A stretch of 64,000 nt of DNA, taken from Vallitalea guaymasensis. GTDB taxonomy: Bacteria; Bacillota; Clostridia; Lachnospirales; Vallitaleaceae. The stretch covers positions 4,650,001 through 4,714,000 of the forward strand of contig NZ_CP058561.1 of the NCBI RefSeq assembly GCF_018141425.1. Direction: 5' to 3'. The translations under genes were made by a program, and so were the position numbers. Within the stretch, counting starts at the first letter, position 1. Every line of letters begins with the position of its first letter. Under the pieces are notes generated by a model that worked only from the letters and a program-made list of their open reading frames with translations, was not told the origin of the DNA and did not search any database. This document shows positions 1,504 to 61,837 of this stretch, piece after piece.

Positions 1504-2099
1504 ATACTAAAGATGCAGTATCCTAGTTGGTACCATTAATCTCGAAGACGGGCCTAAAAATCCGTAAAAGGGCATATCGATGAAGTTCCTGGTGTTGGCT
1601 GGTGACGCCCAGTCGCGGGCTTATGCTGGGAGTTAAGACATAAGGGCGATCCACAATGGCATGTGGGCGTGGACCCTTTTGTCGTGGAGACCTGCGTATG
1701 TGGAAACTGTTAGATACAGTTATCTACGGCGCGGGAGTAAACCTGTCATGCGGCGAAAGCTGTGGACAGAGTAGCCTGCCTTGCGTGAAATAAAGGGAAT
1801 AGTAATTTAAGAGCAAAACTTTTGGCCAAAAGTGAAGCAGATATTGTTACTTGAAACTTTTTTTCGCTAAAGAGGCTAGGGATTAAATGGTATCACTGAG
1901 GAAAACTCCTAGGCTGTTCATTTTTTGAAGCTTATTTAGGATTACAGTGTGGTTGTAAGGTGATCTAGCGCTACTTATGGTGACATAGTAGGAATTAATT
2001 TAATGGGGAACCACTTTTTTGGCGACAAAAAAGTATTAATTCGGGAAAACCTGCTGGACTATAAGCCGCAAAATTTACTAAATTTGCTATCTTTAGTAT
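1504..2099 (+). ncRNA. ole: OLE RNA (ornate large extremophilic RNA)
   Basis: This block of about 600 nt carries no ORF, is clearly richer in G+C than its surroundings and lies between isoprenoid genes and the gene for the OLE-associated protein, exactly the known OLE context. Its 5' strand at 1504-1514 is perfectly complementary to 2089-2099, closing the whole RNA with an 11-bp helix. G+C-rich conserved stretches lie inside, for example around 1540-1640 and 1680-1790. OLE RNA is known to form a membrane ribonucleoprotein with OapA and to affect tolerance of stresses such as cold, alcohol and Mg2+; its biochemical activity is unsettled. Assignment rests on context, size and recognised sequence. 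A covariance-model search was not run. Confidence 0.93.
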
Positions 2100-2119
2100 T
2101 AATTCATGTTAATACTAAA
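2092..2119 (+). promoter_or_regulatory. Perfect hairpin at the 3' end of OLE RNA
   Basis: TTTAGTATTAA (2092-2102) and TTAATACTAAA (2109-2119) form an 11-bp perfect stem with a 6-nt loop. The left arm overlaps the 3' strand of the OLE closing helix, so the two helices exclude each other. No T-run follows, so it is not a typical intrinsic terminator. It could be a processing site or a conformational switch ahead of oapA. Confidence 0.6.
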
Positions 2120-2163
2120 TTACATAATAAAATATTTCATAAGAAAAATCGAGGTATAATAAT

Positions 2164-2745
2164 TTGAGTAAAAATAAAACTAAAGTAAAGTTTAGGAGTT
2201 TATATACACATAAAAAAATAAATACTCTTTGGATTGGGATAATAACAGTCATTACGTTAATAACAGCCATATTACTTGGATATATTGCACTAGTACTTAT
2301 GGACAATGTAAGCCTATACGGTGCTATTTTTATTGTATTAGTAATAGTATTGTTAGGTATATTTTTTGATTTGCTAGGTATTGCGGTTACTGCAGCAGAA
2401 GAGACGCCGTTTCATTCAATGGCTGCAAGTAAGGTAAGAGGGTCTAAAGAAAGTATAACTATTATTAGAAATGCTGGAGCTGTAGCTAATTTCTTTAATG
2501 ATGTAATTGGAGATATATCTGGTATTATATCAGGACTCGCCACTGGAGTCATTGTTCTCAAACTAGTAGCTAAATTTGCTATACAAGATACAATCATTAA
2601 TGTACTTCTTACTGGAGTGATTGCTGCTATTACAGTAGGGGGTAAAGCTATAGGTAAAGAAATTGCACTAAGGCACTCTAACTTGATAGTTTATAAATTA
2701 GGTGTAATTTATAGCCTGTTCAGGAAGCAAAACAAGAACAAATAA
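2164..2745 (+). CDS. oapA: OLE-associated membrane protein OapA
   Basis: This 193-residue protein has about four hydrophobic segments (near residues 18-40, 44-66, 120-140 and 150-165) and basic ends. It matches the OLE-associated protein family (BH2780-like) in size, topology and position directly after OLE RNA and before dxs. The central stretch with FFDLLGIAVTAAEETPFHSM and AASKVRGSKES is the recognisable conserved core. Family knowledge: OapA binds OLE RNA and brings it to the membrane. The start is TTG, 8 nt after a GAGGT ribosome site. The track of hydrophobic and basic residues fits RNA binding on the inner face. Its molecular function beyond RNA anchoring is not settled. Confidence 0.9.
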   Translation: MSKNKTKVKFRSLYTHKKINTLWIGIITVITLITAILLGYIALVLMDNVSLYGAIFIVLVIVLLGIFFDLLGIAVTAAEETPFHSMAASKVRGSKESITIIRNAGAVANFFNDVIGDISGIISGLATGVIVLKLVAKFAIQDTIINVLLTGVIAAITVGGKAIGKEIALRHSNLIVYKLGVIYSLFRKQNKNK

Positions 2746-2774
2746 ATTAAAGATAAGTAAAGGTGTTGAAAAAA

Positions 2775-4646
2775 GTGAACGAAATATTAGATGGGATTAG
2801 TAGCCCTAGTGATATTAAAGCTTTAGAAATAGACCAATTGAACATACTAGCAAAAGAACTTAGAGAATATCTAATAAAAGTAGTAAGTAATACAGGTGGA
2901 CATTTAAGTTCAAATTTAGGAGTAGTAGAATTAACATTAGCACTTCATTATTGCTTTAATTCACCATATGATAAATTAATATGGGATGTAGGACATCAGA
3001 CTTATATCCATAAGATGATTACTGGTAGAAAAGAAGAGATTAAGACTGTTAGAAAATTTCAAGGATTAAGTGGATTCCCAAAAAGAGCAGAAAGCGAACA
3101 TGATATATTTGAAACAGGGCATAGCTCAACATCCATTTCAGCTGCCCTTGGTTTTGCAAAAGCTAGAGAATTATTGAATGAGAATAATTATGTGGTACCT
3201 ATAATAGGTGATGGATCAATGACAGGTGGAATGGCTTTTGAAGCATTGAATAATGCTGGAAGGCTAGATTCTAATTTTATTGTGATACTCAATGATAATC
3301 AAATGTCTATTTCCAGAAACGTAGGTGGGTTATCATCTTATTTAGATACAATAAGAACAGGTACAGTATATAAAGAAATGAAAGAAGAAGTTGAGAAAGC
3401 ACTTACTAAAATTCCTAGAATAGGTAAGGAAGTTGTTAAGGTTATAAGAGACGTCAAATCTGGTATCAAACAGTTGGTCATACCTGGAATGCTATTTGAA
3501 GAATTAGGATTTACTTATCTAGGTCCAATAGATGGACATAACATATCTGCATTAATAAAAACACTCAATCAAGCTAAAAGACTAAATGAGCCAGTGCTCA
3601 TACATGTTAATACAATAAAAGGTAAAGGTTATAAGCCGGCAGAACTGAATCCTACCAAATATCATGGAACCAAACCATTCTATATTAAGAATGGCAGACC
3701 TAAGAATTTGCCTTGTTCGGATACCTATTCAAAAGTACTTGGTGATACTCTTATTGATATAGCAGATAATAAGAAGAAAGGTATAGTAGCAATATCAGCT
3801 GCGATGCCAGAAGGTACAGGTCTTGATAAATTCGCAAGAAAATATCCTGATAAATTCATTGATGTTGGGATAGCTGAACAACATGCTGTAACTTATGCTG
3901 CAGGACTTGCAGCTAGTGGCATTAAACCTGTAGTAGCTTTATACTCATCATTCTTACAGAGAGCTTATGACCAGATTATACATGATGTCTGTATGCAGCG
4001 CCTACCAGTAGTATTTGCAATTGATAGAGCAGGTTTGGTAGGTGAGGATGGTGAAACCCATCAAGGTATATTTGACATATCATTTTTGAGCCATATGCCC
4101 AATATGACAGTGATTGCTCCTAAAAATAAAAGTGAATTACAATCTATGATTAAATTCGCTGTAGACTATGAAGCACCTATAGCCATAAGATATCCTAAAG
4201 GTAAAGCTTCAAATGAATTAAAAGAATATAATGAAGAAATTACTTATGGAAAAAGTGAGATCATTAAAAGAGGCAGTAAAATAGCAATTATCGGTGTTGG
4301 AACCTTGACACAGACAGCATACAACGTTTCTGCTATGCTAGAAGAGAATAATATTATGTGTACACTGATTAATGCTAGATTTGTTAAGCCTATTGATAAA
4401 GAATTAATTGAAGAGATTGCAAATAACCATGATTATATATTCACTATCGAGGAAAATGTTGTTTCTGGTGGATATGGGAATAATGTTGTAAAATTTGTAT
4501 CTGATACCCAAGCTAATACAAAAGTTGTTTGTATAGGTATTGAAGATGATTTTATACAACATGGTAAAAGAGATGAATTAATAAAATTATGTAAGTTAGA
4601 TGAAGAAAGTATATATAATAGAATTATGACATACGTAAACAAGTAA
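2775..4646 (+). CDS. dxs: 1-deoxy-D-xylulose-5-phosphate synthase
   Basis: This enzyme condenses pyruvate and glyceraldehyde 3-phosphate with thiamine diphosphate, the first step of the MEP isoprenoid pathway. The thiamine/Mg2+ motif GDGSMTGG with downstream NDNQMS lies near residues 145-175, and the EQHAVTYAAGLA stretch near 370 belongs to the pyrimidine-binding domain. The length of about 623 residues is normal. GTG and TTG codons at 2763-2768 overlap the AAAGGTG ribosome site, so the GTG at 2775 (9 nt spacing) is preferred. It feeds the same pathway as ispA upstream and lies close behind oapA, as in other OLE operons. Confidence 0.96.
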   Translation: MNEILDGISSPSDIKALEIDQLNILAKELREYLIKVVSNTGGHLSSNLGVVELTLALHYCFNSPYDKLIWDVGHQTYIHKMITGRKEEIKTVRKFQGLSGFPKRAESEHDIFETGHSSTSISAALGFAKARELLNENNYVVPIIGDGSMTGGMAFEALNNAGRLDSNFIVILNDNQMSISRNVGGLSSYLDTIRTGTVYKEMKEEVEKALTKIPRIGKEVVKVIRDVKSGIKQLVIPGMLFEELGFTYLGPIDGHNISALIKTLNQAKRLNEPVLIHVNTIKGKGYKPAELNPTKYHGTKPFYIKNGRPKNLPCSDTYSKVLGDTLIDIADNKKKGIVAISAAMPEGTGLDKFARKYPDKFIDVGIAEQHAVTYAAGLAASGIKPVVALYSSFLQRAYDQIIHDVCMQRLPVVFAIDRAGLVGEDGETHQGIFDISFLSHMPNMTVIAPKNKSELQSMIKFAVDYEAPIAIRYPKGKASNELKEYNEEITYGKSEIIKRGSKIAIIGVGTLTQTAYNVSAMLEENNIMCTLINARFVKPIDKELIEEIANNHDYIFTIEENVVSGGYGNNVVKFVSDTQANTKVVCIGIEDDFIQHGKRDELIKLCKLDEESIYNRIMTYVNK

Positions 4647-4693
4647 AATATATACACTAAGAATTTGCTTTAACGGAAGGAATGTATATAATT

Positions 4694-5506
4694 ATGGTAC
4701 AAAAAGAAAGACTTGATATATTACTGTTCAATAAGGGTCTAGCTGATTCAAGAGAAAAGGCAAAATCAATTATTATGACTGGAAATGTTTTCGTAAATGG
4801 TGAAAGAGAAGATAAACCAGGTACCAAATTTGATATTAAGTCGGAAATAATTGTAAAGAAGAACCCTAATCCATATGTAAGTCGTGGAGGATTAAAGTTA
4901 GATAAAGCCGTAAAAGAATTTGGCTTGAAATTAGAGAACAAAGTATGTACTGATGTGGGAGCTTCCACAGGTGGATTCACTGATTGTATGCTTCAAAATG
5001 GTGCAAAGAAAGTATATTCAATTGATGTTGGATATGGACAATTCGCTTGGAAATTAAGACAGGATGAACGAGTTGTATGCATGGAAAAAACCAATGTTCG
5101 TTATGTCACAAAAGATATGGTGGATGACGAAATAGATTTTGTTTCCATAGATGTTTCTTTTATATCTTTAACCAAAGTATTGGAACCTGTTAAAAAATTG
5201 ATGAGTGAGAATAGTGAGATGGTTTGCCTTATAAAACCACAATTTGAAGCGGGAAGAGAGAAAGTTGGTAAAAAAGGTGTTGTAAGGGATAGAGCTGTTC
5301 ACGAAGAAGTTATTGAGAAAATTATGAAATATGTTTTGTCAATAGATTTCTCCATAAAAGATTTAAGTTTTTCTCCAATAAAAGGTCCAGAAGGAAATAT
5401 AGAGTATTTACTTTACCTGACTACTGAAGGACAATCAACAATGGATGATGAAGAAATTATTAGTATTGTGAAAACAGTAGTTGATAAAGCTCACGAAAAA
5501 TTATAA
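4694..5506 (+). CDS. tlyA: TlyA-family rRNA 2'-O-methyltransferase
   Basis: This protein of about 270 residues has an N-terminal S4 RNA-binding domain (residues 1-60; RLDILLFNKGLADSREKAK) followed by an FtsJ-like SAM-dependent methyltransferase domain with a DVGASTGGFTD motif near residue 83 and a DVSFISL strand. TlyA enzymes 2'-O-methylate cytidines of 16S and 23S rRNA; older annotations call them hemolysins. An ATG at 4682 lies directly on the GGAAGG site, so the ATG at 4694 is preferred and fits the usual N-terminus. It sits in the usual dxs-tlyA-nadK-argR-recN order. Confidence 0.92.
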   Translation: MVQKERLDILLFNKGLADSREKAKSIIMTGNVFVNGEREDKPGTKFDIKSEIIVKKNPNPYVSRGGLKLDKAVKEFGLKLENKVCTDVGASTGGFTDCMLQNGAKKVYSIDVGYGQFAWKLRQDERVVCMEKTNVRYVTKDMVDDEIDFVSIDVSFISLTKVLEPVKKLMSENSEMVCLIKPQFEAGREKVGKKGVVRDRAVHEEVIEKIMKYVLSIDFSIKDLSFSPIKGPEGNIEYLLYLTTEGQSTMDDEEIISIVKTVVDKAHEKL

Positions 5507-5598
5507 AATATAAATGTGCCATTATTTAGGAAATGAACATGAGATTCTTATAGAATTCTGTAAAATAAGTATTTCCTGAATTATAGAAGGATGGTTTT

Positions 5599-6462
5599 AT
5601 GAATAAATTTGTAATAATACCTAATCTGACCAAGGATAAAAAACTAGAAACAACAAAGTTAATTGTTGATTGGTTAGAAAAAAATGACTGTAAGATATGT
5701 TTGCCAGCACAAATAGCTAATTATATCAATAAGCAGCAATATAGCTGTTCAGAAAGTGACATGTATAATAATGCTGATTGTGCTATTGTATTAGGAGGAG
5801 ACGGAACGATTCTTAATGCAGCGAGAAATCTGATCAAATATGATTTGCCTATACTTGGTGTTAATCTAGGTAATCTAGGTTTTTTGGCTGAGGTAGAAAA
5901 AAAAGATGCATTAAGTACTTTGTCAAAGATCATTAAAGGTGATTATTATGTCCAAAGAAGAATGATGTTGGATGTAAAAAGATTAATTAATGATAAAGAA
6001 GATTTAATAGGAGTTGCATTAAATGACATTGTAATAGCTAGAACGTCTATATCTAGAATGATGAAATACAGTATTTATGTTAATGATGGACATGTTAACA
6101 ATTATTCTGCAGACGGTATAATAGTTTCCACGCCTACAGGCTCAACAGCATATAATTTGTCTGCTGGAGGTCCTATATTGGACCCTAAGAATGAAATGAT
6201 GGTCATAACACCTATATGCCCTCATACATTGATGTCAAGAAGTATTGTACTTTCAAAAAACGATGTAGTTAAGATATCACTAGAAAACAACAGAAAGAGC
6301 TGGAATGACGATACTATGATTACCATTGATGGTCAAGAGAGTTTTAACATAGACCAAAAAGATAAAATTATAATATCTAACTCTTATAAAAGTGCTAAAC
6401 TAATTACATGTAATAAAAATGGATTTTATACGATTCTAAAAAAGAAATTAGGTAATTGCTAA
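5599..6462 (+). CDS. nadK: NAD kinase
   Basis: This 287-residue enzyme phosphorylates NAD to NADP. The ATP/NAD-binding GGDGTILNAARN motif lies near residue 68, and the glycine-rich TPTGSTAYNLSAGGPI motif near residue 177. Length and motif spacing match bacterial NadK. An ATG follows a GAAGGA ribosome site. NADPH is needed by the MEP pathway reductoisomerase, so its place in this operon makes metabolic sense, though this order is also simply conserved in Firmicutes. Confidence 0.96.
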   Translation: MNKFVIIPNLTKDKKLETTKLIVDWLEKNDCKICLPAQIANYINKQQYSCSESDMYNNADCAIVLGGDGTILNAARNLIKYDLPILGVNLGNLGFLAEVEKKDALSTLSKIIKGDYYVQRRMMLDVKRLINDKEDLIGVALNDIVIARTSISRMMKYSIYVNDGHVNNYSADGIIVSTPTGSTAYNLSAGGPILDPKNEMMVITPICPHTLMSRSIVLSKNDVVKISLENNRKSWNDDTMITIDGQESFNIDQKDKIIISNSYKSAKLITCNKNGFYTILKKKLGNC

Positions 6463-6541
6463 CTTTAGACAGCTATTATAGATTCATCTTATATTTATAG
6501 GGAAGGTATTCCTAATTATTAATGAACTAGGAGGAAAATGG

Positions 6542-7000
6542 ATGAAAATTGAACGCCAAACTAAGATTCTTCAATTAATTAATCACTATGATATTGAGAC
6601 TCAGGAAGATTTAGCAAGTAGACTTATCGAGGAAGGGTTTATAGTAACTCAAGCAACTATATCAAGAGATATCAGAGAATTAAGATTGACTAAGATTGCT
6701 ACATCAGATGGAAAACAGAAATACGTTGTATTAAAGAATAAAGAGACCAAATTAAATGAAAAATTCATAAGAGTATTCAAAGATGGTTTTTCATCTATGG
6801 ACCGGGCAGGTAACATTATTGTTTTGAAGACATTAGTTGGTATGGCTATGGCTGTAGCTGCTGCTATTGATGCACTCAATTTTGATGACATAGTGGGTTG
6901 TATAGCTGGGGATGATACTATTTTCTGTGCAGTAAGAACAGAAAACGATGCCATTAGGATTATGGAAAAAATGAACAAATTGGTTAATAATAATTTATAG
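6542..7000 (+). CDS. argR: Arginine repressor ArgR/AhrC
   Basis: This 152-residue regulator has an N-terminal winged helix (residues 1-70, with TQATISRDIRELRL as the recognition region) and a C-terminal arginine-binding/oligomerisation domain with a GDDTIF motif near residue 122. ArgR hexamers bind arginine and control arginine biosynthesis and catabolism genes. It has an AGGAGG ribosome site and lies between nadK and recN as in many Firmicutes. Confidence 0.95.
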   Translation: MKIERQTKILQLINHYDIETQEDLASRLIEEGFIVTQATISRDIRELRLTKIATSDGKQKYVVLKNKETKLNEKFIRVFKDGFSSMDRAGNIIVLKTLVGMAMAVAAAIDALNFDDIVGCIAGDDTIFCAVRTENDAIRIMEKMNKLVNNNL

Positions 7001-7053
7001 ATTCCATTGAATACGATACTATTATACTTTCTATCAAGTAGGAGGAAATTAAT

Positions 7054-8751
7054 ATGTTAATACACCTTCATGTAAAAAATTATGCGTTAATTGATGAAAT
7101 CAACGTAGATTTTGATGATAACCTAAATATATTAACTGGTGAGACAGGAGCAGGGAAATCCATTATTATTGGTTCTATTAATGCTGTTCTTGGTGGTAAA
7201 GTCAGTAAGGATATGATAAGGACTGGTTGCGATAGCGCATTAATTGAACTTTTGTTCTATGTGGATAATAATGTTGTTTTAAGCAAATTACATGAATACG
7301 ATATTAACATGGATAATAACAAAGAACTCCTAATAACCAGGAAAATAAATATTAATGGTAGAAGTGTCTTTAGAATGAATGGACAAGTTGTTACTACATC
7401 CATAGTAAAGGATATTTCTACTAAGCTTATTGATATACATGGCCAACATGAACATCAATCTTTACTAAATAAGAAGAATCATCTTTCATTATTAGATACT
7501 TTTTGCGGTGTAGATGTTTTAGAGTTAAAAGAAAAACTCAGGGAAAAGTATGCTTATTACATGGAACTCAGTAGTAAGATCGATCATTTCATGCTTGATG
7601 AACACACTAGAAAAAAAGAAATATCTTTTTTGGAATATGAAATAAATGAGATAACATCAGCTAACCTGATAATTGGTGAAGATGAGAAACTCAAGGAAGA
7701 ATACACTTTACTCTCAAATGGTAAAAAGATTATTAAGTCCATGTCAGAAATACATACTTATGTTAATGGAGACAGTACCAATATGACAGGTGCAATAGAC
7801 CAGATTGGGCAAGCTGTAAGGCTACTGTCTGGAATAAAAACACTGGATAAAAATATAATGAACATGGAAGAACAGATTTCAAACATTGAGATTATGTTAA
7901 GTGATTTCAATAGAGATATAAACGACTATATAAGTAGTTTTGAACTGGATGAATCAAGATATTTTGAGATTGAAGATCGAATAGATTTAATTAATAATTT
8001 AAAAATGAAATATGGAGATACTATAGAAGAGATATTAAAATATAAAGAAGAAAAAGAAAAATATCTAGAAGAATTAATCAATCATGAAGAACATTTGAAT
8101 CAGATAAATAAAGAAATAAACACACTAAAAAATGAAATTGAAGTTTATTGTGGTGACTTAACAAGAATTAGAAAAGAAAAAGCTAAACATATCAGTAAAC
8201 TGATTGTAAATGCATTAAGGCACATTAATCTGTTGAACACTAATTTTATTATTGAAGTCAACAGAGCTAACAAATTTAATTCAAATGGATGGGATGAAAT
8301 TGAGTTTTTAATTTCAACTAATGTGGGAGAACCATTAAAATCACTTAGTAAAGTAGCATCAGGAGGAGAGTTGTCAAGAATTATGCTGGCTATCAAATCA
8401 GTTCTAGCTGGTAGTGACGATATTGAATCATTGATTTTTGATGAAATCGATACTGGTATTAGTGGAAAAACTGCAGGACTGGTTGCAGAAAAACTTGTAC
8501 AGATTTCAAAAGAACATCAAGTCATCTGTATAACCCATTTGGCTCAAATAGCTGCTATGGGAGATGCTCACTTCATTATTCAGAAGAAAGTTAAAGATAA
8601 TGTTACACATACTTTAATAAATAAATTAGATAAAGAAAGTTCTATCAATGAATTAGCAAGACTGCTTGGCGGCATAAAAATAACTGATGCTGTTATTGCA
8701 AATGCAAAAGAAATGAAGGACTACGCAGAAGAAGTTAAAAAAATTCAATAA
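7054..8751 (+). CDS. recN: DNA repair protein RecN
   Basis: This SMC-like ATPase of 565 residues acts early in double-strand break repair. The Walker A site GETGAGKS is at residues 29-36, a central coiled-coil region spans roughly 160-380, and the ABC signature ASGGELSRIMLAIK lies near residue 434, followed by the Walker B stretch LIFDEIDTGISG. Length is normal. It has an AGGAGG ribosome site and ends the first transcription unit, being followed by a terminator. Confidence 0.95.
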   Translation: MLIHLHVKNYALIDEINVDFDDNLNILTGETGAGKSIIIGSINAVLGGKVSKDMIRTGCDSALIELLFYVDNNVVLSKLHEYDINMDNNKELLITRKININGRSVFRMNGQVVTTSIVKDISTKLIDIHGQHEHQSLLNKKNHLSLLDTFCGVDVLELKEKLREKYAYYMELSSKIDHFMLDEHTRKKEISFLEYEINEITSANLIIGEDEKLKEEYTLLSNGKKIIKSMSEIHTYVNGDSTNMTGAIDQIGQAVRLLSGIKTLDKNIMNMEEQISNIEIMLSDFNRDINDYISSFELDESRYFEIEDRIDLINNLKMKYGDTIEEILKYKEEKEKYLEELINHEEHLNQINKEINTLKNEIEVYCGDLTRIRKEKAKHISKLIVNALRHINLLNTNFIIEVNRANKFNSNGWDEIEFLISTNVGEPLKSLSKVASGGELSRIMLAIKSVLAGSDDIESLIFDEIDTGISGKTAGLVAEKLVQISKEHQVICITHLAQIAAMGDAHFIIQKKVKDNVTHTLINKLDKESSINELARLLGGIKITDAVIANAKEMKDYAEEVKKIQ

Positions 8752-47895: not shown

Positions 47896-48672
47896 ATGAG
47901 TAAGATAATAGCTATTGCATCACAGAAGGGTGGCGTTGGTAAAAGTACAACCTGTAGAAATTTAGCAACTATATTAGCTAATCAAGGGTATAGGGTATTA
48001 GCAGTTGATTGTGACAATCAAGCGAGCATGACGGATTGCTTTGGAATAGAGAACCCTCATAAGTTAGATAATACGTTATATCATCTAATGATGAAGGTTA
48101 TAACAGATAATGACCTTCCACCTAGGGAAGAATACGTTATCAAAAAAGAAGGTGTGGATATAATACCAAGTAGTATAGAATTATCGGCAGTAGATATTAA
48201 CTTAGTATCAACAATGAGTAGGGAATATGTGCTTAAGACAATCATTGACGAGATAAAGGACTATTATGATTACATTCTTCTTGATTGTATGCCCTCATTA
48301 GGACTAATGACAGTCAATGTGTTAGCAACTTGTGACAGTGTATTAATTCCTGCAACACCAGAATATCTATCTGCAAAAGGACTTGAGCTTCTGCTAATAA
48401 CAATATATAAACTCAAAAGACGTATTAACAAAAGAATCACATTTGAGGGTATACTCTTAACCATGTTTGATGATCGGACGAATTTATCTAAGAATATATA
48501 TAAAATGCTTCAAGACTCCTATGGCGAGAATATCAAGATATTTAATACTAAGATACCAAAGTCAGTTAAAGTGGGGGAAGCCAATCTTAAAAGCATGAGC
48601 ATTGTAGAGTATATGCCAAATAATAAAGCAGCTAAAGCTTATCAAGAATTTGCACAAGAATTGGTAAGTTAA
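47896..48672 (+). CDS. parA: ParA/Soj-family partition ATPase
   Basis: This 258-residue ATPase has the deviant Walker A KGGVGKSTTCRN at residues 11-22, Walker A' DCDNQASMT near 41 and Walker B YILLDCMPSLG near 125. With a ParB partner it maintains or segregates the element. It has an AAAGGAGG ribosome site and is followed by a terminator. It is the first gene of the conjugative element module in view. Confidence 0.95.
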   Translation: MSKIIAIASQKGGVGKSTTCRNLATILANQGYRVLAVDCDNQASMTDCFGIENPHKLDNTLYHLMMKVITDNDLPPREEYVIKKEGVDIIPSSIELSAVDINLVSTMSREYVLKTIIDEIKDYYDYILLDCMPSLGLMTVNVLATCDSVLIPATPEYLSAKGLELLLITIYKLKRRINKRITFEGILLTMFDDRTNLSKNIYKMLQDSYGENIKIFNTKIPKSVKVGEANLKSMSIVEYMPNNKAAKAYQEFAQELVS

Positions 48673-48958: not shown

Positions 48959-49999
48959 TTGGGAAAAGATGAAGCAAAAAAGGTACAGCCTTTTATGGCA
49001 ATTTTCGGTGAGGATTATGAAAATGAAATAGAAAATAAAGATGAAAAAATTAATCAAGATATGATAAAGATAGAACAACTAGTACCATTTAAAAACCATC
49101 CTTTTAAGTTATATGAGGGAGATAGGTTTAATGAAATGGTAGAGAGCATAAAACAATTTGGTGTAATTGTACCTATTGTGGTAAGAAAGCAAAAACTTAG
49201 ATTTGAAATACTCTCAGGACATAATAGAGTCGAAGCTTGTAAGGCATTGGGACTTAGTGAAATACCAGGTATTGTTAAGGAAGGGTTAACAGAAGAAGAA
49301 GCACTCCTTATAGTAACTGAAACTAATACAATGCAACGATCCTTTACTGATTTACCTCATTCAGAAAGGGCAACAGTAGTTGCAGTAAGACATGAAGCTA
49401 TGAAGAAACAAGGAGTTAGAACAGATTTATTAAAGGAGATAGAGAAGTTATCTAAATCACCAAGCATAGATCAAGGAACTTCTTCCCCACTGGGGAAGAA
49501 GTTAGAAACCAGTATGGGAAAAGTAGGACAAGAATATAATCTATCAAAAAATTCAGTAGCAAGATATTTACGTATAGCTAAACTTCCAAAGGAATTTAAA
49601 GAATTAGTGGACATTGGACAAATAGCTATTAGAGCAGGTGTTGACTTATCTTATCTAAGAGAAGAGAGTCTTGATATTGTTCACGCTATTGTAACAGAAG
49701 AAAATTTTAAGATTGATATGAAAAGAGCTAGAAATCTACGAGGAGCAGATAAAAAAGAACCTTTAACTTTTGAATCAGCACATGCAATTATCAGAGGAGA
49801 AAATAAAGATAAAGAAAAAAAGCCTAAACCACCGAAATATTGGAATAAAGTTTTTATAAAACATTTCAAACCCGAACAGGATGAACAAGAAGTAATGAGT
49901 ATAATTGAAAAGGCATTAGCTATGTATTATAAATCTACACAGTATGAAGATGTAAATATAGAAAGTGATGAATCAGAAAATGAAGAATTAGATATGTAA
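48959..49999 (+). CDS. parB: ParB-family DNA-binding protein
   Basis: This 346-residue protein has the ParB/Srx-like nuclease-type domain (residues 40-120) with the box [14 protein letters not shown] near 83, followed by a helix-turn-helix region around the [17 protein letters not shown] stretch near 190. The start is TTG, 10 nt after AAGGAG. It works with ParA on a centromere-like site on the element; no parS match was sought. It ends 16 bp before the helicase gene, so it leads that operon. Confidence 0.92.
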
Positions 50000-50015: not shown

Positions 50016-53000
50016 TTGAGACGATACAACAAAGTAAAGGATATATATGATTATACTCTTTTAGAGATAGTTAAAGATCGTAAAGAGTGGATGCTATTCC
50101 TAAACTTTCATGGTAGTGTATATAAACATACTTTTGATGATGCAGTTTTAATCTATGCTCAAAGACCTGATGCTACTTTCGTTGCTGATATGAAAACGTG
50201 GAATCAGAAAGTAGGTAGATGGATAAAAAAAGGAGCAAAATCCATTGCTGTATTTGACCATTCTAACAATTTACCTACTCTAAAAAATTACTTTGATATA
50301 AAGGATACAACAGTTAGAGAAGAAAATAGATTTAGCTATCCAACCTATTGGAGAATTAATGAAAAAAATGAACAATTCCTTTTAAATCGCATTAATAGAT
50401 ATTATGATGTAAATACAGTAGATGATTATCTTAAAGAACTAAGTTTAATTGGACTTCAAAAAAGAGAACAGATTATATTTAAGAATTTTAAAAAAGATAT
50501 AGAAGATAGTCACTTAAGCACTTTTGATTTAGAAAGAGTAAAAACTCAATTTTATACTACTTTACTAGAAAGTATTTATTACATGACAGCCACTAGATGT
50601 GGATTTAAAGTAACACCAGATTTTAAAGTTATAAGTTATTTCAATACAAAACCTTTAATCTTTAGAATGGGAAGTATTGTTAGTAATATAGCAGAAAATA
50701 TTCTTAGGGATATTGAAAAAGAAGTTAAAGCAATCCAAAGGGAAAGGAGTGTTGCAAGTGAATCCAATAACATTAGATTACAAAATGACCGAGCAGGGAT
50801 ATCTAGAACCAATACTGGAAGTAACGAACAAACAACTAGAAATAGGGAAGTACGGAAACAAAGCATTGACTTATCTGAAGGAAGAATACCCACACAGATA
50901 CAGTTATCTCAGAGCAGAAGGAATATTGCTGAAAACCATGTACAAGGTAAACGAGGAAGCTCATCAAAGGATGGAGCTATTACAACAACTAATGTTGACA
51001 ACAGAACCGATAAAGAATCCAGAAAACTTTTACGAGAGTTACAGACACAGGGAAATGATAAGAACAAGAGCAGAGGAAATAGTACTTCACGAAATAGTAT
51101 ACAAACCAAGATAGGAACACAATCAGAGTCGTCGTATGATGGCTCTTTTCTTTTGAACAAAAGTACTAATGAAAATAAAAACATACCTAATGAGATAGAT
51201 GAAATGAAGGAATCAAAAACTAAATCTAAAGTAGATACTTACTTGAAAGACAATATTAATAATGCTACAGATATTGACAATATTGTATATGACCTTGACG
51301 AACCTAGTAATGTAATAGACGAAGATGATTTAGATTCTAGTGATGAAAATAATATACCTAAAATAAATTATATCTATAATGCTAAAGATGGTATCGGTAT
51401 AGGTGGAGCAAAAACTAAATATAAGCAAAATATAGAAGCCATTAAGACACTTAATGTTATTGAGAAAGAAAACAGATCGGCTACACCAGATGAGCAAATT
51501 ATTTTAGCAAAATATAATGGATGGGGTGGACTTGCAAATGTATTTGATAGTCATAATAATCAATGGTGTAATGAATACCATGAGTTGAAAGATTTATTGT
51601 CACCAGATGAATATGTAAGTGCCAGAGAATCAACTCCAAATTCCCACTATACTTCACCAGTTGTTATTAAAGCCATATATAAGGCATTAGAGCAAATGGG
51701 TTTTAAGAAAGGAAGTATCCTAGAACCAAGTATGGGAGTGGGTAACTTTTTTGCTCACCTACCTAATAGCATGAAAGATTCTAAGCTTTATGGTATAGAA
51801 TTGGATAATTTATCAGGAAGAATAGGGAAACAGTTATATCAAAGAGCAGATGTTACTATTAGTGGTTATGAGAAAGCTGATCTGAAAGATAATTTTTATG
51901 ATGTAGCTATTGGTAATATTCCGTTTGGTAATTATAAGGTATATGATAGGCAGTATAATAAACATAATTTTCTTATTCATGACTTTTTCTTTGCCAAGAC
52001 AATAGATAAAGTTAGACCTAACGGTATAATTGCACTTGTTACGTCAAGGGGTACATTGGATAAAGCTGATTATAAAGTTAGAAAGTATATAGCTGAGAGA
52101 GCTGAACTTTTAGGAGCTATACGATTACCTAACACAGCTTTTAAGGAAGTAGCAGGAACAGATGTAACATCAGATATCATATTTTTAAAGAAACGTGAAA
52201 GAATATCAGTAGAAAATCCAAGTTGGATTGAAGTAGGAAAAAATGAAAATGGTGTACCCATAAATAATTATTTCTTAGAAAATCCACATATGTGTTTAGG
52301 TAATATGGAGTTTGATACAAGGATGTATGGTGAAAATAGTAATTACACTACATGTGTTGTTATAGATAAAACATTCAACTTAGAAGAAAGCTTGAACCAA
52401 GCTGTTAGTTATATAAAAGGTTCAATAGGTGAGTATAAGAGAGAAGTTGTTGAAAGTGATAATAATGAAATACTTGTAGCTGCTAATCCTAATGTTAAAA
52501 ACTATACTTATGCATACTTAGATAATAATCTTTATTATCGTGAAAACAGTCATATGAGAAGGATAGATATTACTGGTAAGAAATTAGAACGTATCAAAGG
52601 TATGATAGAACTCAGGGAAATTACAAGGAACTTAATAAACATACAAGTAGAAGGTTGTACAAAAGAGAAATTGCAATATACACAATCTATACTCAATAAT
52701 AAGTATGACGCATTTGTTAAAAAGCATGGAGCAATCTCATCTAAAACCAATATGCAAGCCTTTAGAGAGGATAATGACTATCCTCTTTTATGTTCTTTAG
52801 AAGTGATAGACCAAGATAGAAATATTAAGAAAGCTGATATCTTTACAAAGCAGACCATAAAACCTATAGAAAAGATAACTTCTGTAGATACAGCAAGAGA
52901 AGCTCTAACAGTATCTCTTAATGAAAAGGGAGAAGTAGATCTTGGTTATATGTCAGAGTTATATGATGAAGAAAAAGATGATATTATACAAGAACTTCAA

Positions 53001-56000
53001 GGAGAAATATTTCTAAATCCTATTAGATATGACAAGGATAATCCCTATGTAGGTTATGAAACCTATGATGAATACTTATCTGGAAATGTTAGAGAGAAGC
53101 TTAAGTTTGCTAGAGTCTATGCAGAGACTAATCCTGAGCTATTTCCATTAAATATAACTGCATTAGAAAAAATACAACCTAAAGATTTAGATGCTAGTGA
53201 GATTGATGTAAGGCTAGGAACTACATGGATTAATAATAAGGACTATGAGCAGTTTATTTACGAACTCTTAAAGACACCTAATTACTATAAAAATAGAACA
53301 GGTGATAGAGATGAGATATGCCTTACATATAATAATTACAATACCAACTATACTATAAATGGTAAAGGATTAGATGGAAGGTCGGTAGCTGCTAGAGAAA
53401 CATATGGAACAAAACGAATGAATGCTTATTATATTATTGAGGATACTCTTAATCTCAAAAATGTCACAGTAAAAGATAGAGTAGAAGAAGGGGACAAAGT
53501 CAAATATGTTCTCAACAAGAAAGAAACTATGTTAGCTAGAGAAAAGCAAAGCCTTGTAAAACAAGCATTTAAGGAATGGATATTCAAAGAGGCAGAGCGT
53601 CGCAAAAAATATGTAGACTTCTATAATCAAAATTTCAACAATATAAGATTACGAGAATATGATGGTAGCCATCTTACTTTTCCTGAAATGAATAACGATA
53701 TCAAGTTAAGACCACATCAAGTTAATGCTATTGCCAGAACAATCTATGGAGGAAATACACTTCTTGCACATGTAGTTGGTGCAGGAAAGACATTTGAAAT
53801 GATTGCTAGTTGTATGGAACAAAAGAGAATGGGAATTCTTAAAAAAGCTATCTTTGTTGTTCCTAATCATATTACACAGGATTTTGGCTCAGAATTTCTA
53901 AGATTATACCCCAATTCAAAGGTACTTGTTACCACCAAGAAGGATTTTGAGAAAAAGAATAGACAAAGATTTGTATCAAGGATTGCTACAGGGAGTTATG
54001 ATGCCATTGTTATTGGTCATAGTCAATTTGAGAAGATACCTGTTTCTATAGAACGTCAAGAATTAATGATACAAAAACAGATCAATGAACTTATGCATGG
54101 TATCGATCAATCAAAAACTAAAAAAGGACAAAACTGGTCAGTTAAACAGATGGAAGCTGAGAAGAAGAAGCTAGATGTAGAATTAAAGAAGTTACATGAC
54201 ACGCCTAAAGATAATGTCATTAACTTTGAAGAGCTGGGTGTTGATGCTATTTATCTTGATGAAGCTCACTATTATAAGAATTGTGCAGTTTTTTCTAAGA
54301 TGCGTAATGTAGGAGGCATAGGACAATCAAGAGCAAAAAAAGCAAGTGATATGCTCATGAAAACTCAATGTATCCAAGAATTAAAGGGTGGAGAAAAGGG
54401 AGTTGTTTTTGCAACAGGTACACCAATAAGTAATTCCATGACAGAGCTATATGTTATGCAGAGATATCTTCAAAATAAGGAATTAGAAAGTAGAGGATTA
54501 AAGCATTTTGATAGTTGGGCAGCACAGTTTGGAGAAGTTGTTTCGGCATTGGAGCTTGCCCCAGAAGGAACAGGATATCGTATAAAGAATAGATTTGCTA
54601 AGTTTACTAATTTACCAGAGCTTATGACTATGTTTAAGAATGTTGCTGATATTCAAACAGCTGATATGTTAGATTTACCAGTACCTAAGTTAAAGGATGG
54701 AAAAGCAAAAATAATTGTAGCTGAAAGTAATGATTATATTACTAATAAGATGGATGATTTTGCAAAACGAGCAGAGAAGATAAGGGCAGGAAAAGATCCG
54801 AGGATTGATAATATGTTGAAAGTCACTAATGAAGCAAGGCTTCTAGGATTAGACCCACGTACTCTTGACCCTAATGCACCAAACTATCCAGATTCAAAGG
54901 TTAATCGTTGTATAGAAGCTATCTATCAAGAATATATAGCGAGTAATAGTACTAAAGGTACACAGATAATTTTTTCTGACACAGGAACGCCCACAACTGA
55001 TGGGCGTTTTTCAGTATATCCATATATTAAAAACGAGCTAATAAAAAAGGGTATACCAGCAACTGAAATATGTTTTATTCATGATGCAAAAACAGATGTT
55101 CAAAGAGAAGCACTATTTGCAGATATGAGAAGTGGTAATAAAAGAATACTTATAGGTTCTACATCTAAATGTGGTACAGGAACCAATATTCAAGCGAAGC
55201 TAATTGCTCTTCATCATCTTGATTGCCCTTGGAGACCTGCGGATTTGGAACAACGTGAAGGTCGTATACTAAGGCAAGGGAATGAAAATGAAGAAGTTAC
55301 TATCTATAAATATGTGACTAAGTCAACCTTTGATAGCTACATGTGGCAACTAGTAGAAAATAAACAGCGATTTATATCACAGATAATGACCTCTAAATCG
55401 GTGACAAGAAGTGCTGAGGATATTGATGAAACAGTATTATCCTATGCAGAGGTTAAAGCCATAGCCACAGGTAACCCTTTAATCAAGGAGAAAATGGAAA
55501 TAGATAATGAGGTAGCCAGACTTACCCTTTTAAAAGGAGCCTATGATAGTAACAAGTATTCATTGGAAGATAGATTTTTATACAGGTATCCAAGTGAAAT
55601 TAAGAAGCAGAAAGAAATTATTGAATGTCTTGTTAAAGATATTGAAAAAAGAGATATGACAAGTTCTAATGATTTCAAGATTACTATTGAGGGCAAAGTT
55701 TTTAACGAAAGAGAGAGGGCAGGTACATATGTGCTAGCACTATTACAAGGTATGAAGGCAGGTGATACAAAGGCTATAGGTAATTTCAAAGATTTTGAAC
55801 TATCAATAACTAGTAGTATGTTTAGCAATGAAAATGGAATGTTGCTACATGGTAGTAAAACATATTTTGTTAGTTTTTCAAATAGTACTCATGGAAATAT
55901 GATTAAATTAGAAAATATTCTTGATAGCTTGGAAAAACGAATAGAGGATAGTGAAATGCGTATTGATGAATTAACAAGAAACATGGAGCAGGCTAAAGAA

Positions 56001-56189
56001 GAATTTGAGAAACCTTTTGTGCATCAAGCAAATCTACAAAGACTTGTTAAGAGACAAGCAGAGCTTAATGTTTTACTAGACATGAACAAAGAGTCAGACA
56101 CACCTGTAGTTGATGAGCAAAATAATATCAAAAATAGTAAAAAAATTAAGAGTGTGTCAATAGAACAAGAAATAGAGGAAGATTTATAA
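50016..56189 (+). CDS. Giant DNA methylase/SNF2 helicase of conjugative elements
   Basis: This 2057-residue protein combines an ArdC-like N-terminal domain (residues 1-110; [20 protein letters not shown]), a polar low-complexity linker (about 245-400), an N6-adenine methylase-like domain with NIPFGNY near 632 (in place of NPPY), and an SNF2-type helicase with Walker A GAGKT near 1253, DEAH near 1412 and RQGNENEEV near 1753. Such proteins are standard in Tn1549-like elements, probably acting in DNA processing and anti-restriction. The start is TTG, 6 nt after AAAGGAGG. Part of the linker is overprinted by a second gene. Confidence 0.92.
50758..51114 (+). CDS. tnpV: TnpV-family protein nested inside the helicase gene
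   Basis: In the +1 frame relative to the helicase gene, a GTG at 50758 follows GGAAAGGAG by 8 nt and opens 118 codons. The protein ([19 protein letters not shown], then [10 protein letters not shown], ending [18 protein letters not shown]) matches the TnpV family of transposon-encoded proteins in length and end motif. Codon use is normal in this frame, while the helicase frame here encodes only polar linker (residues 248-366). TnpV function is unknown. This is an overlapping gene pair, not an ORF shadow. Confidence 0.78.
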
Positions 56190-56234: not shown

Positions 56235-56483
56235 ATGGAAAAAAATTATGTACAAATAACGTTGCTACAGGCAATTGAAGTATTAACTAATCCACAACCA
56301 AAGGATAAAAGCATTATAGAAGAAGCAATTAGAGTATTAGGTATAAGGACATTTCTATTAAATATTGATTCATATGATATTTCAGAACCTGTTAAGGAAA
56401 AGCTAATTGATTTAAGTAATATTGTAGAAGAATTCATTAATAATTTACCTGATAAAAATCAAGGTGGTGGTAATATTGGTTAG
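56235..56483 (+). CDS. Hypothetical element protein (82 aa)
   Basis: This is a small acidic, mainly helical protein with a glycine-rich tail, preceded by AAAGGAGATGA. Its 3' end overlaps the start of radC, so the two are probably translated together. It is not recognised. Confidence 0.65.
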   Translation: MEKNYVQITLLQAIEVLTNPQPKDKSIIEEAIRVLGIRTFLLNIDSYDISEPVKEKLIDLSNIVEEFINNLPDKNQGGGNIG

Positions 56484-57195
56484 GAGAAAAGAAGATTCTG
56501 AGATATTTATAAAGAGTCTAAATGCTTTAACAGGTATTTCTCTAAAAAAGATAAAAAACTACTCAAAAGGCAATACTCCATTTAATATTCTTGAACATCC
56601 AATGGTTGTTGAACCTAATGAAAAGCAACTAACAAAAATAAATATGTTAAATGAATTTATTTCTTCTTATAAAGTATTAAGAATGAAAGAAGAACAAGAA
56701 CAAATCAGATTTGGTTGTCCAAGTGAGTCAGGGGAATACTTCTTATCATTACTTGGCGGTATGAAAGATAGAGAACGTTTTATGATAGCTTTTTTAGATA
56801 ATAATAATCATATTATAGAAACAAGGGTAGTTTCAGAGGGAACAGTTGATATGGCAGCAGTTTATCCAAGAGATATTTTGAAAATAGCTATTGCTAATGA
56901 TTGCAGTGGCATGATACTTTCACATAATCATCCAGGCAAATCTCTTATATTTTCTAGAGAGGATATTGAGATAACACAAAAAATGGTTGATATTTTTCAT
57001 CCACTTAATATAAGAGTTCTTGATCATATTGTTGTTGGGGGCAATCAATATTCATCTTTAGCTGAAAAAGGATGTTTGCCTAATATGCCACTTAATAAAG
57101 CTAGATATGAGCCTATACCATTGAGCGATATGATAAAAGAAGATATAGAAGATGATTCACTATATTATGATGACGATGAAGAGCTAGGACTATAA
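56476..57195 (+). CDS. radC: RadC-family JAB/MPN protein
   Basis: This protein of about 239 residues has the metal-binding JAMM motif HNHPGKSLIFSREDI near residue 149 (H-x-H...S-x-x-D), typical of RadC. A GTG at 56464 sits within the AAGGTGGT ribosome site, so the TTG at 56476 is preferred and overlaps the previous gene by 8 bp. RadC proteins are common in mobile elements; the activity is not well defined. The acidic C-terminal tail (DDDSLYYDDDEE-like) is notable. Confidence 0.9.
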   Translation: MVRRKEDSEIFIKSLNALTGISLKKIKNYSKGNTPFNILEHPMVVEPNEKQLTKINMLNEFISSYKVLRMKEEQEQIRFGCPSESGEYFLSLLGGMKDRERFMIAFLDNNNHIIETRVVSEGTVDMAAVYPRDILKIAIANDCSGMILSHNHPGKSLIFSREDIEITQKMVDIFHPLNIRVLDHIVVGGNQYSSLAEKGCLPNMPLNKARYEPIPLSDMIKEDIEDDSLYYDDDEELGL

Positions 57196-57209: not shown

Positions 57210-58166
57210 ATGTACAAGGAAAAGCGTTTTTCAGAAGAACAATTAAAAGAAGCAGATGATATCAATATAATTGCCTTGGCTAGAAGTCATGGTTACGATG
57301 TGAAGAAAATAACACCTCATTCCTACAAGATACCTAGCTATGGTGGTTTATACATTAAAGCAGATGGTTCAAAATGGAACTGGTTTTCTCACGGAAAAGG
57401 TGGTGGAGCTATACAGTTTCTAATGGAGCTAGAAAACAAATCGTGGGTGGATGCAGTAAAAGAATTATTAGGTATAAACAATGAAGAACTGCCTTATGTT
57501 GAACCACTACCGAAAAATATTGATAAGAAGGGTAAACTAGTATTACCTAATAAAAATAAGACTTACAAACATATCTTTGCCTATCTTATACAGACTAGAA
57601 AGATTGATAGTAATGTAGTAAAAGAATTTGTTAAGAATAAACAACTCTATGAAGATGAAAAGAATAACTGCGTATTTGTAGGCTATAACGAATCAGATGA
57701 ACCTAGATTTGCAAGTCTAAGAGGTACAAGTTTAAAACGATTTAGAAAAGATTTATATGGTTCTGATAAAACCTATCCTTTTAATAGAGAAGGAACAAAT
57801 GAAGTACTTATGATATTTGAAAGTGCTATTGATCTTATGAGTTATATGACGTTAGTACAATTATATGATGTAAAAGACTTTAAACATCATATGATATCTA
57901 TGGGTGGTACATCTTATCTACCTATTAAGTATTATACAAATAAATATCCAAATATAAAGAAAATGATTCTCTGTCTGGACAATGACGAAGAGGGTCATTT
58001 TTTTTCACAACAAATTCATGACCGTTATAGAGATAAATTTCAAATTACAAAGCATGTACCAGTACACAAGGATTTTAATGAAGACTTAATCAATATTCAT
58101 AACAAACCAATAGAGCTTAATAATATAGAGGTAGATATATGTGTTGATGAAGAAATAGTAATTTAG
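57210..58166 (+). CDS. DUF3991/Toprim domain protein
   Basis: This 318-residue protein has an N-terminal DUF3991-type domain (residues 12-100; PSYGGLYIKADGSKWNWFSHG) and a C-terminal Toprim domain with MIFESAIDLMSY near 203 (conserved Glu) and LCLDNDEEG near 257 (DxD). It resembles primase-like proteins of Tn1549-like elements. It lies 14 bp after radC with a GGGGTGATGA ribosome site. It probably primes or processes element DNA in transfer. Confidence 0.9.
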   Translation: MYKEKRFSEEQLKEADDINIIALARSHGYDVKKITPHSYKIPSYGGLYIKADGSKWNWFSHGKGGGAIQFLMELENKSWVDAVKELLGINNEELPYVEPLPKNIDKKGKLVLPNKNKTYKHIFAYLIQTRKIDSNVVKEFVKNKQLYEDEKNNCVFVGYNESDEPRFASLRGTSLKRFRKDLYGSDKTYPFNREGTNEVLMIFESAIDLMSYMTLVQLYDVKDFKHHMISMGGTSYLPIKYYTNKYPNIKKMILCLDNDEEGHFFSQQIHDRYRDKFQITKHVPVHKDFNEDLINIHNKPIELNNIEVDICVDEEIVI

Positions 58167-60590: not shown

Positions 60591-60920
60591 ATGAGGATAA
60601 TAAAAAAAGATAGATTTATAGGTCTTAGAGTAACTGATGTAGAGTATCGTGTGATTGAAAGAAAAGCCAAGAAAGCCAAAATGAATATGAGTCAATATGT
60701 ATCTCTCCAAGCTCTTGAGAGGGATATTACTATTTATGAGGGATTAAATGAATATACGCATCAATTGTCAAAGATAGGAGCTAATTTGAATCAAGCCTTA
60801 ATATTAGTACATCAAGGAAAGCTAAATACTATAGATATAATGCCTGTGAAAAAGGAGATACATAAGGTATGGCAATTATTGAACAAATTAACGGAAGAAA
60901 TAAGACGTATACAGGGTTAA
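60591..60920 (+). CDS. mobC: MobC-like relaxosome protein
   Basis: This 109-residue protein has a ribbon-helix-helix start (FIGLRVTDVEYRVIERKAKKA) and the MobC-type ISKIGANLNQALIL core, here LSKIGANLNQALILVH near residue 65. MobC assists the relaxase at oriT. The ATG at 60591 follows AAAAGGAG with no gap, so the true start may be a nearby non-ATG codon. Its 3' end overlaps the relaxase gene by 52 bp. Confidence 0.88.
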   Translation: MRIIKKDRFIGLRVTDVEYRVIERKAKKAKMNMSQYVSLQALERDITIYEGLNEYTHQLSKIGANLNQALILVHQGKLNTIDIMPVKKEIHKVWQLLNKLTEEIRRIQG

Positions 60921-61837
60921 GTAGAGTAATAGATTATATACTTCGTGATGATAAAACAGAATTAGGACTCTATGGAGGATTTAACTGTGATGCTGATAAT
61001 GCCTATAATGATTTTATAATGACTAAGAGAAATTATAACAAAGAGACTGGACGACAATATATTCATTTTGTCCAGTCTTTTTCTAATCATGAAAATATAT
61101 CAGCAGAAAAAACTAAAGCTGTTGCAGATGAATTATTATTAATGAATAAGTTTAAAGGTTTTCAAGTAGTTTATTCAACTCATAAAGATACGGATAATTT
61201 ACATACTCACTTTGTATTGAACACAGTTAATTGTTATACAGGTATGAAATGGAAAATGAGTAAAGAGGAACTTCAAGAGTTAAAGGATTATTCAGATGAA
61301 ATCTGTAGGAGATATGGTCTTATCATCACTCATGGTAAATTAGGTTCACATATAAATCGAGGTGAGTACCGTTCTAAAGAAAATGCTAGAAGCTGGAAGT
61401 ATGAATTATATCTAGCTGTCAAAGAAGCTAGGAAATATGCAATTTCTAGAAATGACTTTATTGTCAAATTAAAAAAGTTAGGTTATGAAACTCAATGGTC
61501 TGATAGTAGGAAATATATTACCTTTACCAATATTGATGGTAAGAAATGCAGAAATAGAAAATTATATCCCCCTGAGCAGTTTACAAAGGAAGCATTAGAA
61601 AAGAGATTTGAACTTAATGCACAGCAGTTAGAAAAGCATGTAGCTGATACAAAATTTGAGAGTTTACTATCGACTATTAAATTATTTCAGAATAACCACA
61701 ATGATGTTGATAGTAGCAATAATAGATATCCGCTTAGTGGTATGGAGAGTACATCTAAAAAAGATTATATTGCAGATGTAAAGAAGAACGCAGGTCTTAA
61801 CTGGGGAAAAGAAAAAAATAAAAGTGAAGTTATGTAA
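60869..61837 (+). CDS. mobA: MOBP-type relaxase (mobilisation nuclease)
   Basis: This 322-residue relaxase has the MOBP pattern: an N-terminal catalytic tyrosine region (GLSRVIDYILRDDKT near 17-31), QYIHFVQSFS with the first histidine near 64, and the metal triad HKDTDNLHTHFVLNTVN near residue 103-119. It nicks and carries the transferred strand. It is shorter than the usual 450-550 residues, so the C-terminal helicase or primase-like tail is reduced. The ATG lies within mobC. Confidence 0.9.
   Translation: MAIIEQINGRNKTYTGLSRVIDYILRDDKTELGLYGGFNCDADNAYNDFIMTKRNYNKETGRQYIHFVQSFSNHENISAEKTKAVADELLLMNKFKGFQVVYSTHKDTDNLHTHFVLNTVNCYTGMKWKMSKEELQELKDYSDEICRRYGLIITHGKLGSHINRGEYRSKENARSWKYELYLAVKEARKYAISRNDFIVKLKKLGYETQWSDSRKYITFTNIDGKKCRNRKLYPPEQFTKEALEKRFELNAQQLEKHVADTKFESLLSTIKLFQNNHNDVDSSNNRYPLSGMESTSKKDYIADVKKNAGLNWGKEKNKSEVM

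Follow-up and report, generated by a model that had tools for sequence, protein, structure and literature searches.

A tnpV gene nested out of frame in a giant helicase gene of putative conjugative elements in Firmicutes

A gene of the TnpV family lies fully enclosed, on the same strand and in a different frame, in an open giant helicase gene within a stretch of 64,000 nucleotides of Vallitalea guaymasensis (NZ_CP058561.1, positions 4,650,001 to 4,714,000; hereafter, the window, whose internal numbering is used throughout). The arrangement very probably goes back to one ancient nesting of tnpV in the helicase of a conjugative-element family, followed by translation from an internal start, selection on the TnpV frame and repeated exits. 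According to this explanation, tnpV would have resided for long in the +1 frame of the helicase gene, and the one frame and one place that it occupies point to a single origin. Ribosomes translating the helicase frame would cross tnpV and produce a flexible, disordered linker, and other ribosomes would begin at an internal ribosome site, predicted from the sequence, to give the small folded TnpV. The substitution pattern and the avoidance of stops show that selection acts on the TnpV frame as a protein and on the helicase frame mainly for freedom from stops. As trees and gene order indicate, tnpV may occasionally have moved out, either to a separate position upstream of the helicase or elsewhere, to different loci.

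The nested gene, its host and the element

The host gene (50016..56189, + strand) starts with TTG and encodes a giant SNF2/DEAD-type helicase of 2057 amino acids, for which the Pfam families Helicase_C, ResIII and SNF2-rel_dom score above their cut-offs. The N-terminal folded domain comprises host residues 1-247 (50016..50756, +), as delimited by a profile of this domain (profile A1, described below) and by AlphaFold pLDDT. In an AlphaFold2 prediction of the first 495 residues, based on an alignment of 16 rows, residues 1-250 reach pLDDT values of 77-97 per block, with one block at 64. The values lie below 50 for residues 261-495, which span nearly the whole tnpV overlap, and the stretch downstream of the overlap is low too in this alignment of only 16 rows. 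The host codons overlapping tnpV (host residues 248-367; 50757..51116, +) encode a hydrophilic linker that is predicted to be disordered; the blocks between residues 261 and 370 have pLDDT values of 29-39. Over 103 nested loci, the mean hydrophobic fraction of the host overlap is 0.19, compared with 0.41 in TnpV and with 0.39 in the host N-terminal part of those loci that have enough sequence; the overlap is enriched in G, S, R, E and D. The helicase frame had been described as low-complexity in this stretch, which agrees with its hydrophilic and predicted disordered character.

The tnpV gene (50758..51114, +) begins with GTG and encodes 118 amino acids in the +1 frame relative to the host. 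The protein matches the Pfam family PF14198 with 72.9 bits (cut-off 27) over its full length (profile positions 5-111 of 111); a search of NCBIfam with the TnpV frame gave no match up to E 1. A Shine-Dalgarno sequence, AAAGGAG (50743..50749, +), is located 8 nt ahead of the GTG and has a counterpart in most nested loci. In the closest of 18 aligned relatives (L074, TnpV 82% identical), ATG stands where the window has GTG. The preliminary description had placed here a TnpV-family gene with a strong ribosome site, on the same strand and in the +1 frame of the helicase; start, end, frame, ribosome site and the coordinates of both reading frames proved correct, and the search with a TnpV hidden Markov model, named beforehand as a possible refuter, returned the match given above.

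A chance ORF as the source of the tnpV frame is ruled out by the family score and by conservation. The longest open run in the +1 frame of the entire helicase gene is that of tnpV, with 140 codons (runner-up 49), and the tnpV frame is open in 0.58% of 20000 re-draws of the helicase synonymous codons; the family match is far stronger evidence for the gene than this re-draw.

The AlphaFold2 model of TnpV (pLDDT 90.6, pTM 0.71; 111 rows) comprises one beta-hairpin and four helices. A Foldseek search of the PDB with this model, run up to E 10, yielded 49 matches, and the viral library yielded 173; in neither set did any match reach 0.001. In the VIA second look at the fold, which covered 219 chains, the best Z was 6.4 over 61 residues, which is not informative; the predicted fold had no clear counterpart in these searches. 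The TnpV sequence gave 28 matches in the PDB up to E 10, the best of which (E 0.012) is a designed protein. The only other PF14198 match listed in the same genome (G000:C1:222463-222729, - strand) reaches 23 bits, which is under the cut-off of 27.

The helicase gene is accompanied by genes, all on the + strand, for a ParA-like ATPase of the element (47896..48672), a ParB-like protein (48959..49999), a RadC/JAB protein (56464..57195), a DUF3991/Toprim protein (57210..58166), a NikA/MobC-like mobilisation protein (60591..60920) and a MobA/VirD2-like relaxase (60869..61837); a coupling protein and a TraG-like ATPase follow beyond the window. Judged by its genes, the window element is a conjugative element. 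Among known systems, the Tn1549/CD1107-type conjugative elements come close. The plasmid NZ_CP135064.1 of Streptococcus suis, which has genes annotated as CD1107 and CD1108 family, contains a nested +1 tnpV in an annotated helicase. The window element, with its ParA, ParB, RadC, Toprim, MobC, relaxase, coupling protein and TraG-like ATPase, is a candidate member of this group. Genes for type I restriction-modification (hsdM, hsdS and hsdR) begin about 38 kb past the window end (L265, G000:C1:4750000-4769999, at 1543-8498).

TnpV is otherwise known from elements of the Tn4451/Tn4453 type, whose TnpV belongs to the same family, PF14198, as that of the window. According to PMC3158075, TnpV of Tn4451 has been postulated, from its likeness to lambda Xis, to act in excision, which is the only lead to a function that was found; the paper also reports homologues of tnpV in Tn6104, Tn6105 and Tn6106, all of which carry large serine recombinases. 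In those elements tnpV is described as a gene of its own on serine-recombinase elements, whereas the tnpV of the window is found inside a helicase gene. Among 20 scanned ORFs of the element, 10 within the window and 10 past its end, no serine recombinase was detected. Free-standing tnpV copies are flanked by 71 listed ORFs; the 10 of these that were scanned with Pfam included one Mob_Pre protein and no serine recombinase.

Occurrence of the nested arrangement

PF14198 was found in 38 of 96 related genomes and in at least 140 of 391 genomes of the class, and 30 new loci from the class-level TnpV matches listed were initially taken into the set. Many of the loci in the set have no stop over hundreds of codons in the frame that is offset by two bases from tnpV. 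Relatives of the helicase were retrieved with profile A1, which was built from 18 rows of the helicase N-terminal domain. It matched in 28 of the 96 relatives and 96 of the 391 class genomes (threshold 1e-10) and in 25 of 398 phylum genomes (threshold 1e-15); named genome contigs, which were scanned as well, contributed 26 loci. The final census contained 163 distinct N-terminal matches, identical stretches having been merged, which is probably why L144 is missing from it. Removal of 16 matches that covered fewer than 140 positions, and of 4 that were followed by less than 800 nt, left 143 testable loci.

In 134 of these 143 loci, tnpV is nested and intact and the host frame is uninterrupted; one locus has a stop in the host (L202), one has a broken tnpV (L175), and seven have no tnpV just downstream. 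The nesting is thus not the rare case that the preliminary description took it for, and a broken tnpV frame, which it considered as a possible refutation, was encountered once among the 136 relatives that have both tnpV and host. In 136 of 136 cases tnpV behind the helicase N-terminal domain is in the +1 frame, and it is placed just after this domain. The loci added after the profiles were built include 42 tnpV copies, 32 of them previously unseen and 42 of 42 nested in +1, together with 12 more N-terminal matches without tnpV (11 short, and the weak L252). In the locus L202 (G148:C50), the host is divided into two ORFs of one frame, the first for the N-terminal part and the second for the helicase, and the stop that separates them falls inside an intact tnpV. 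In L144 (G169:C216), tandem tnpV copies follow one N-terminal domain, one of them broken and the other with host stops.

The 102 nested loci of known origin are distributed over 38 family codes and 67 genus codes. The hosts include Maledivibacter halophilus, Alkaliphilus pronyensis, Alkaliphilus serpentinus, Clostridium manihotivorum, Fusibacter, Sporosalibacterium faouarense, Agathobaculum desmolans and Ruminiclostridium papyrosolvens; outside the class, nested tnpV occurs in six family codes of the phylum and in the S. suis plasmid. Diverged nested copies were detected only by a broader profile, and because this profile was made from nested copies their family membership is partly circular, which does not apply to their frame. 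Diverged tnpV-like +1 genes were observed in helicases of other families (L182-L184, L186-L189, L191, L195 and L197). The counts of nested and free-standing loci do not represent prevalences, since most nested loci came from the search with the N-terminal profile of the helicase and most free-standing ones from among the best-scoring Pfam matches. On these sequences, the nesting seems to be a long-standing trait that helicases of a conjugative-element family have in common, and not a local accident.

Translation start and selection on the two frames

A ribosome-site motif of at least 5 nt, at 3-12 nt (median 8) from the start codon, precedes 99 of 103 nested tnpV genes and 30 of 36 free-standing ones. 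It was found in 14 of 102 control windows 400 nt upstream, which were examined with the same best-of search because the tnpV starts had been picked for good motifs. Of the individual +1-frame codons that resemble starts in the host N-terminal part, 47 of 2032 have the motif. The 103 start codons comprise 100 ATG, 2 GTG and 1 TTG. A stop in the tnpV frame occurs at most 2 codons upstream of the start in 18 of the 103 genes and at most 10 codons upstream in 43.

These data bear on a programmed +1 frameshift from the helicase, in which the purine-rich site would act as stimulator and a fusion of the N-terminal domain with TnpV would be the product. The invariable +1 frame and the ribosome-site-like motif at the junction would fit such an event. 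The motif, however, keeps the same spacing from a start codon as in free-standing tnpV, and where the in-frame stop is within 2 codons upstream, tnpV can therefore hardly be an extension by an earlier frameshift. As a general route to TnpV, frameshift fusion was rejected on the start-linked motif and the near-upstream stops, and we consider this explanation improbable.

Alternatively, the helicase frame might not be truly read through, so that the N-terminal protein, TnpV and the helicase would be two or three separate products and the open frame would be incidental. The split locus L202 is in line with this, as are the cut hosts: in 16 loci the host ORF is shorter than 1300 codons, and tnpV is mostly still open there. 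Nevertheless, 135 of 136 loci have no host stop across tnpV, as opposed to stops in 37 of 37 free-standing copies (mean 6.6) in the frame equivalent to that of the host. A host-frame start with a ribosome site soon after tnpV is no commoner (5 of 101) than in a control stretch (4 of 101), and a downstream restart of the helicase was rejected on this count. We regard separate products as very improbable. Given the 16 cut hosts with a mostly open tnpV, the full fusion protein may not always be needed. Hosts cut short after an open tnpV include L119, L121, L140, L158, L159, L161, L164 and L213, among others, and in some of them the long frame resumes past the stop.

In the +1 nest, position 3 of a TnpV codon corresponds to position 1 of a host codon, and TnpV position 2 to host position 3. 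In 34 disjoint pairs of nested tnpV genes, 700, 482 and 1147 substitutions fall on TnpV positions 1, 2 and 3 (30/21/49%); thus, within the overlap, host position 1 is the most changed and host position 3 the least. The corresponding numbers for 13 pairs of free-standing tnpV are 382, 230 and 662 (30/18/52%), and the host N-terminal part, in its own frame, shows 1402, 996 and 2316 (30/21/49%). Because the nested pattern is much like that of free-standing tnpV, the shared DNA evolves like a tnpV gene, and the constraint in it sits on the TnpV frame. The mean amino acid identity of the 34 nested pairs is 0.75 in TnpV and 0.60 in the host frame, compared with 0.67 and 0.43 in the same two frames of free-standing pairs, and the host frame may therefore have some extra conservation beyond that imposed by TnpV and the ban on stops.

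TnpV codons that end in T before AA, AG or GA, and so create a stop in the host frame, make up 246 of 904 in free-standing copies and 0 of 2352 in nested ones; although their absence from the latter is built into how nested copies were defined, only 2 intact tnpV genes behind an N-terminal domain were dropped on account of a host stop. When the synonymous codons of each tnpV are shuffled, the host frame is left open by 9% of the shuffles on average, and when the host codons are shuffled, the tnpV frame is left open by 7%. Constraint on the TnpV frame without constraint on the helicase frame fits a founding insertion and a read-through fusion of neighbouring genes, the two origins put forward in the preliminary description, equally well, and this pattern argues against an origin of TnpV from a helicase segment that was under constraint. 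In these giant helicases, the part of the linker that tnpV overlaps should not be taken for a protein feature in its own right. It is perhaps another gene's shadow, which has stayed open during a large part of the elements' history and is easily missed by annotation.

History of the arrangement and related systems

Pairwise distances of TnpV and of the host N-terminal part are correlated over 102 loci (Spearman 0.766, with 0.187 as the highest value in 500 permutations). That a mobile tnpV inserted recently, or several times, into helicase genes whose frame stayed open by luck can be given hardly any credence: TnpV genes do occur on mobile elements, and a passage of PMC9815147 reports mobilizable elements of S. 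suis with tnpV that insert into an snf2 gene, but separate insertions should hit three frames and varied places instead of one of each, and tnpV co-diverges with its host across the family and genus codes given above, so a recent mobile insertion is not supported.

The history of a long-resident tnpV was followed with two TnpV trees, both unrooted, of only 112 columns and with partly weak supports. The quick tree has 138 rows (101 of 103 nested and 35 of 37 free-standing copies, partial or short ones being omitted, with L199 and L207 added) and requires 9 changes of label between nested and free-standing. The careful tree, from which 45 of the 138 rows were omitted as long or near-identical and to which L198 was added, has 94 rows and requires 10 changes (9-11 in the bootstraps for the nested label), at least 5 of which are forced by well-supported branches. 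Free-standing copies are scattered at several places among the nested ones.

Among the seven un-nested testable loci, L198, L199 and L200 have good N-terminal matches (177-193 bits); L103 (120 bits) has a broken host, and L108, L109 and L252 are weak (48-82 bits) with short host frames. In L198, tnpV is directly upstream of the helicase, 92 nt before it and on the same strand. In L199, the order is parA-parB-tnpV-further ORFs-helicase, with tnpV 1.4 kb upstream on the same strand. The contig of L200 was searched for tnpV and none was found. In the host tree, L198, L199 and L200 are positioned among nested hosts in two places, with SH-aLRT values of 86 and 94, both short of a star.

One nesting followed by several exits is the simplest history because all nested copies share frame and place, a point that the unrooted trees alone cannot show. 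It is tempting, at slightly less than even chances, to go further and see in the helicase linker the ancestral home of the sampled TnpV diversity: a single nesting in an early conjugative element of Firmicutes would have been followed by several independent exits. These would account for the tnpV genes that stand free at other mobile loci as well as for the un-nested copies that stayed upstream of the helicase. The same-strand position of tnpV upstream of the helicase in two un-nested cases suggests that the two proteins may have a common task in the handling of element DNA. The likeliest role of TnpV, although with the odds rather against it, would be that of an accessory in this handling that is made from the same message as the helicase.

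Out-of-frame nested pairs include Rz/Rz1 of phage lambda and comS in srfA of Bacillus subtilis. As in these pairs, the nesting in the window is complete, on the same strand and in another frame, with a start of its own. By contrast, the host segment in the window is predicted to be a disordered linker and shows hardly any constraint in its own frame, and the family to which the nested gene belongs has free-standing members too. To our knowledge, the known cases of nested genes in bacteria are few and mostly young. A well-folded TnpV family with free-standing kin constitutes a natural control for nesting, and 134 nested copies provide the power to measure the cost of a second frame.

The literature searched, which included PMC10782964, PMC5633684 and PMC6435816 and covered few subscription journals, showed no report of a tnpV inside a helicase gene. 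According to PMC7103648, the annotation of prokaryotic genomes systematically leaves out long nested genes. TnpV genes are probably under-counted, with an S. suis and a Monoglobus record as examples; the gene tables of both describe themselves as incomplete. PF14198 matches are present in 34 plasmid records, four of which were inspected. Phage records hold 6 TnpV matches, all without annotation, and 126 stretches of viral contigs fitted a pattern, none of which was confirmed. In the annotated S. suis record, the nested tnpV copy has no listed gene. In the Monoglobus record (L206, NZ_OY725736.1), a TnpV gene is listed at 8022-8354, and the next listed gene is SNF2 at 10271, 1.9 kb on.
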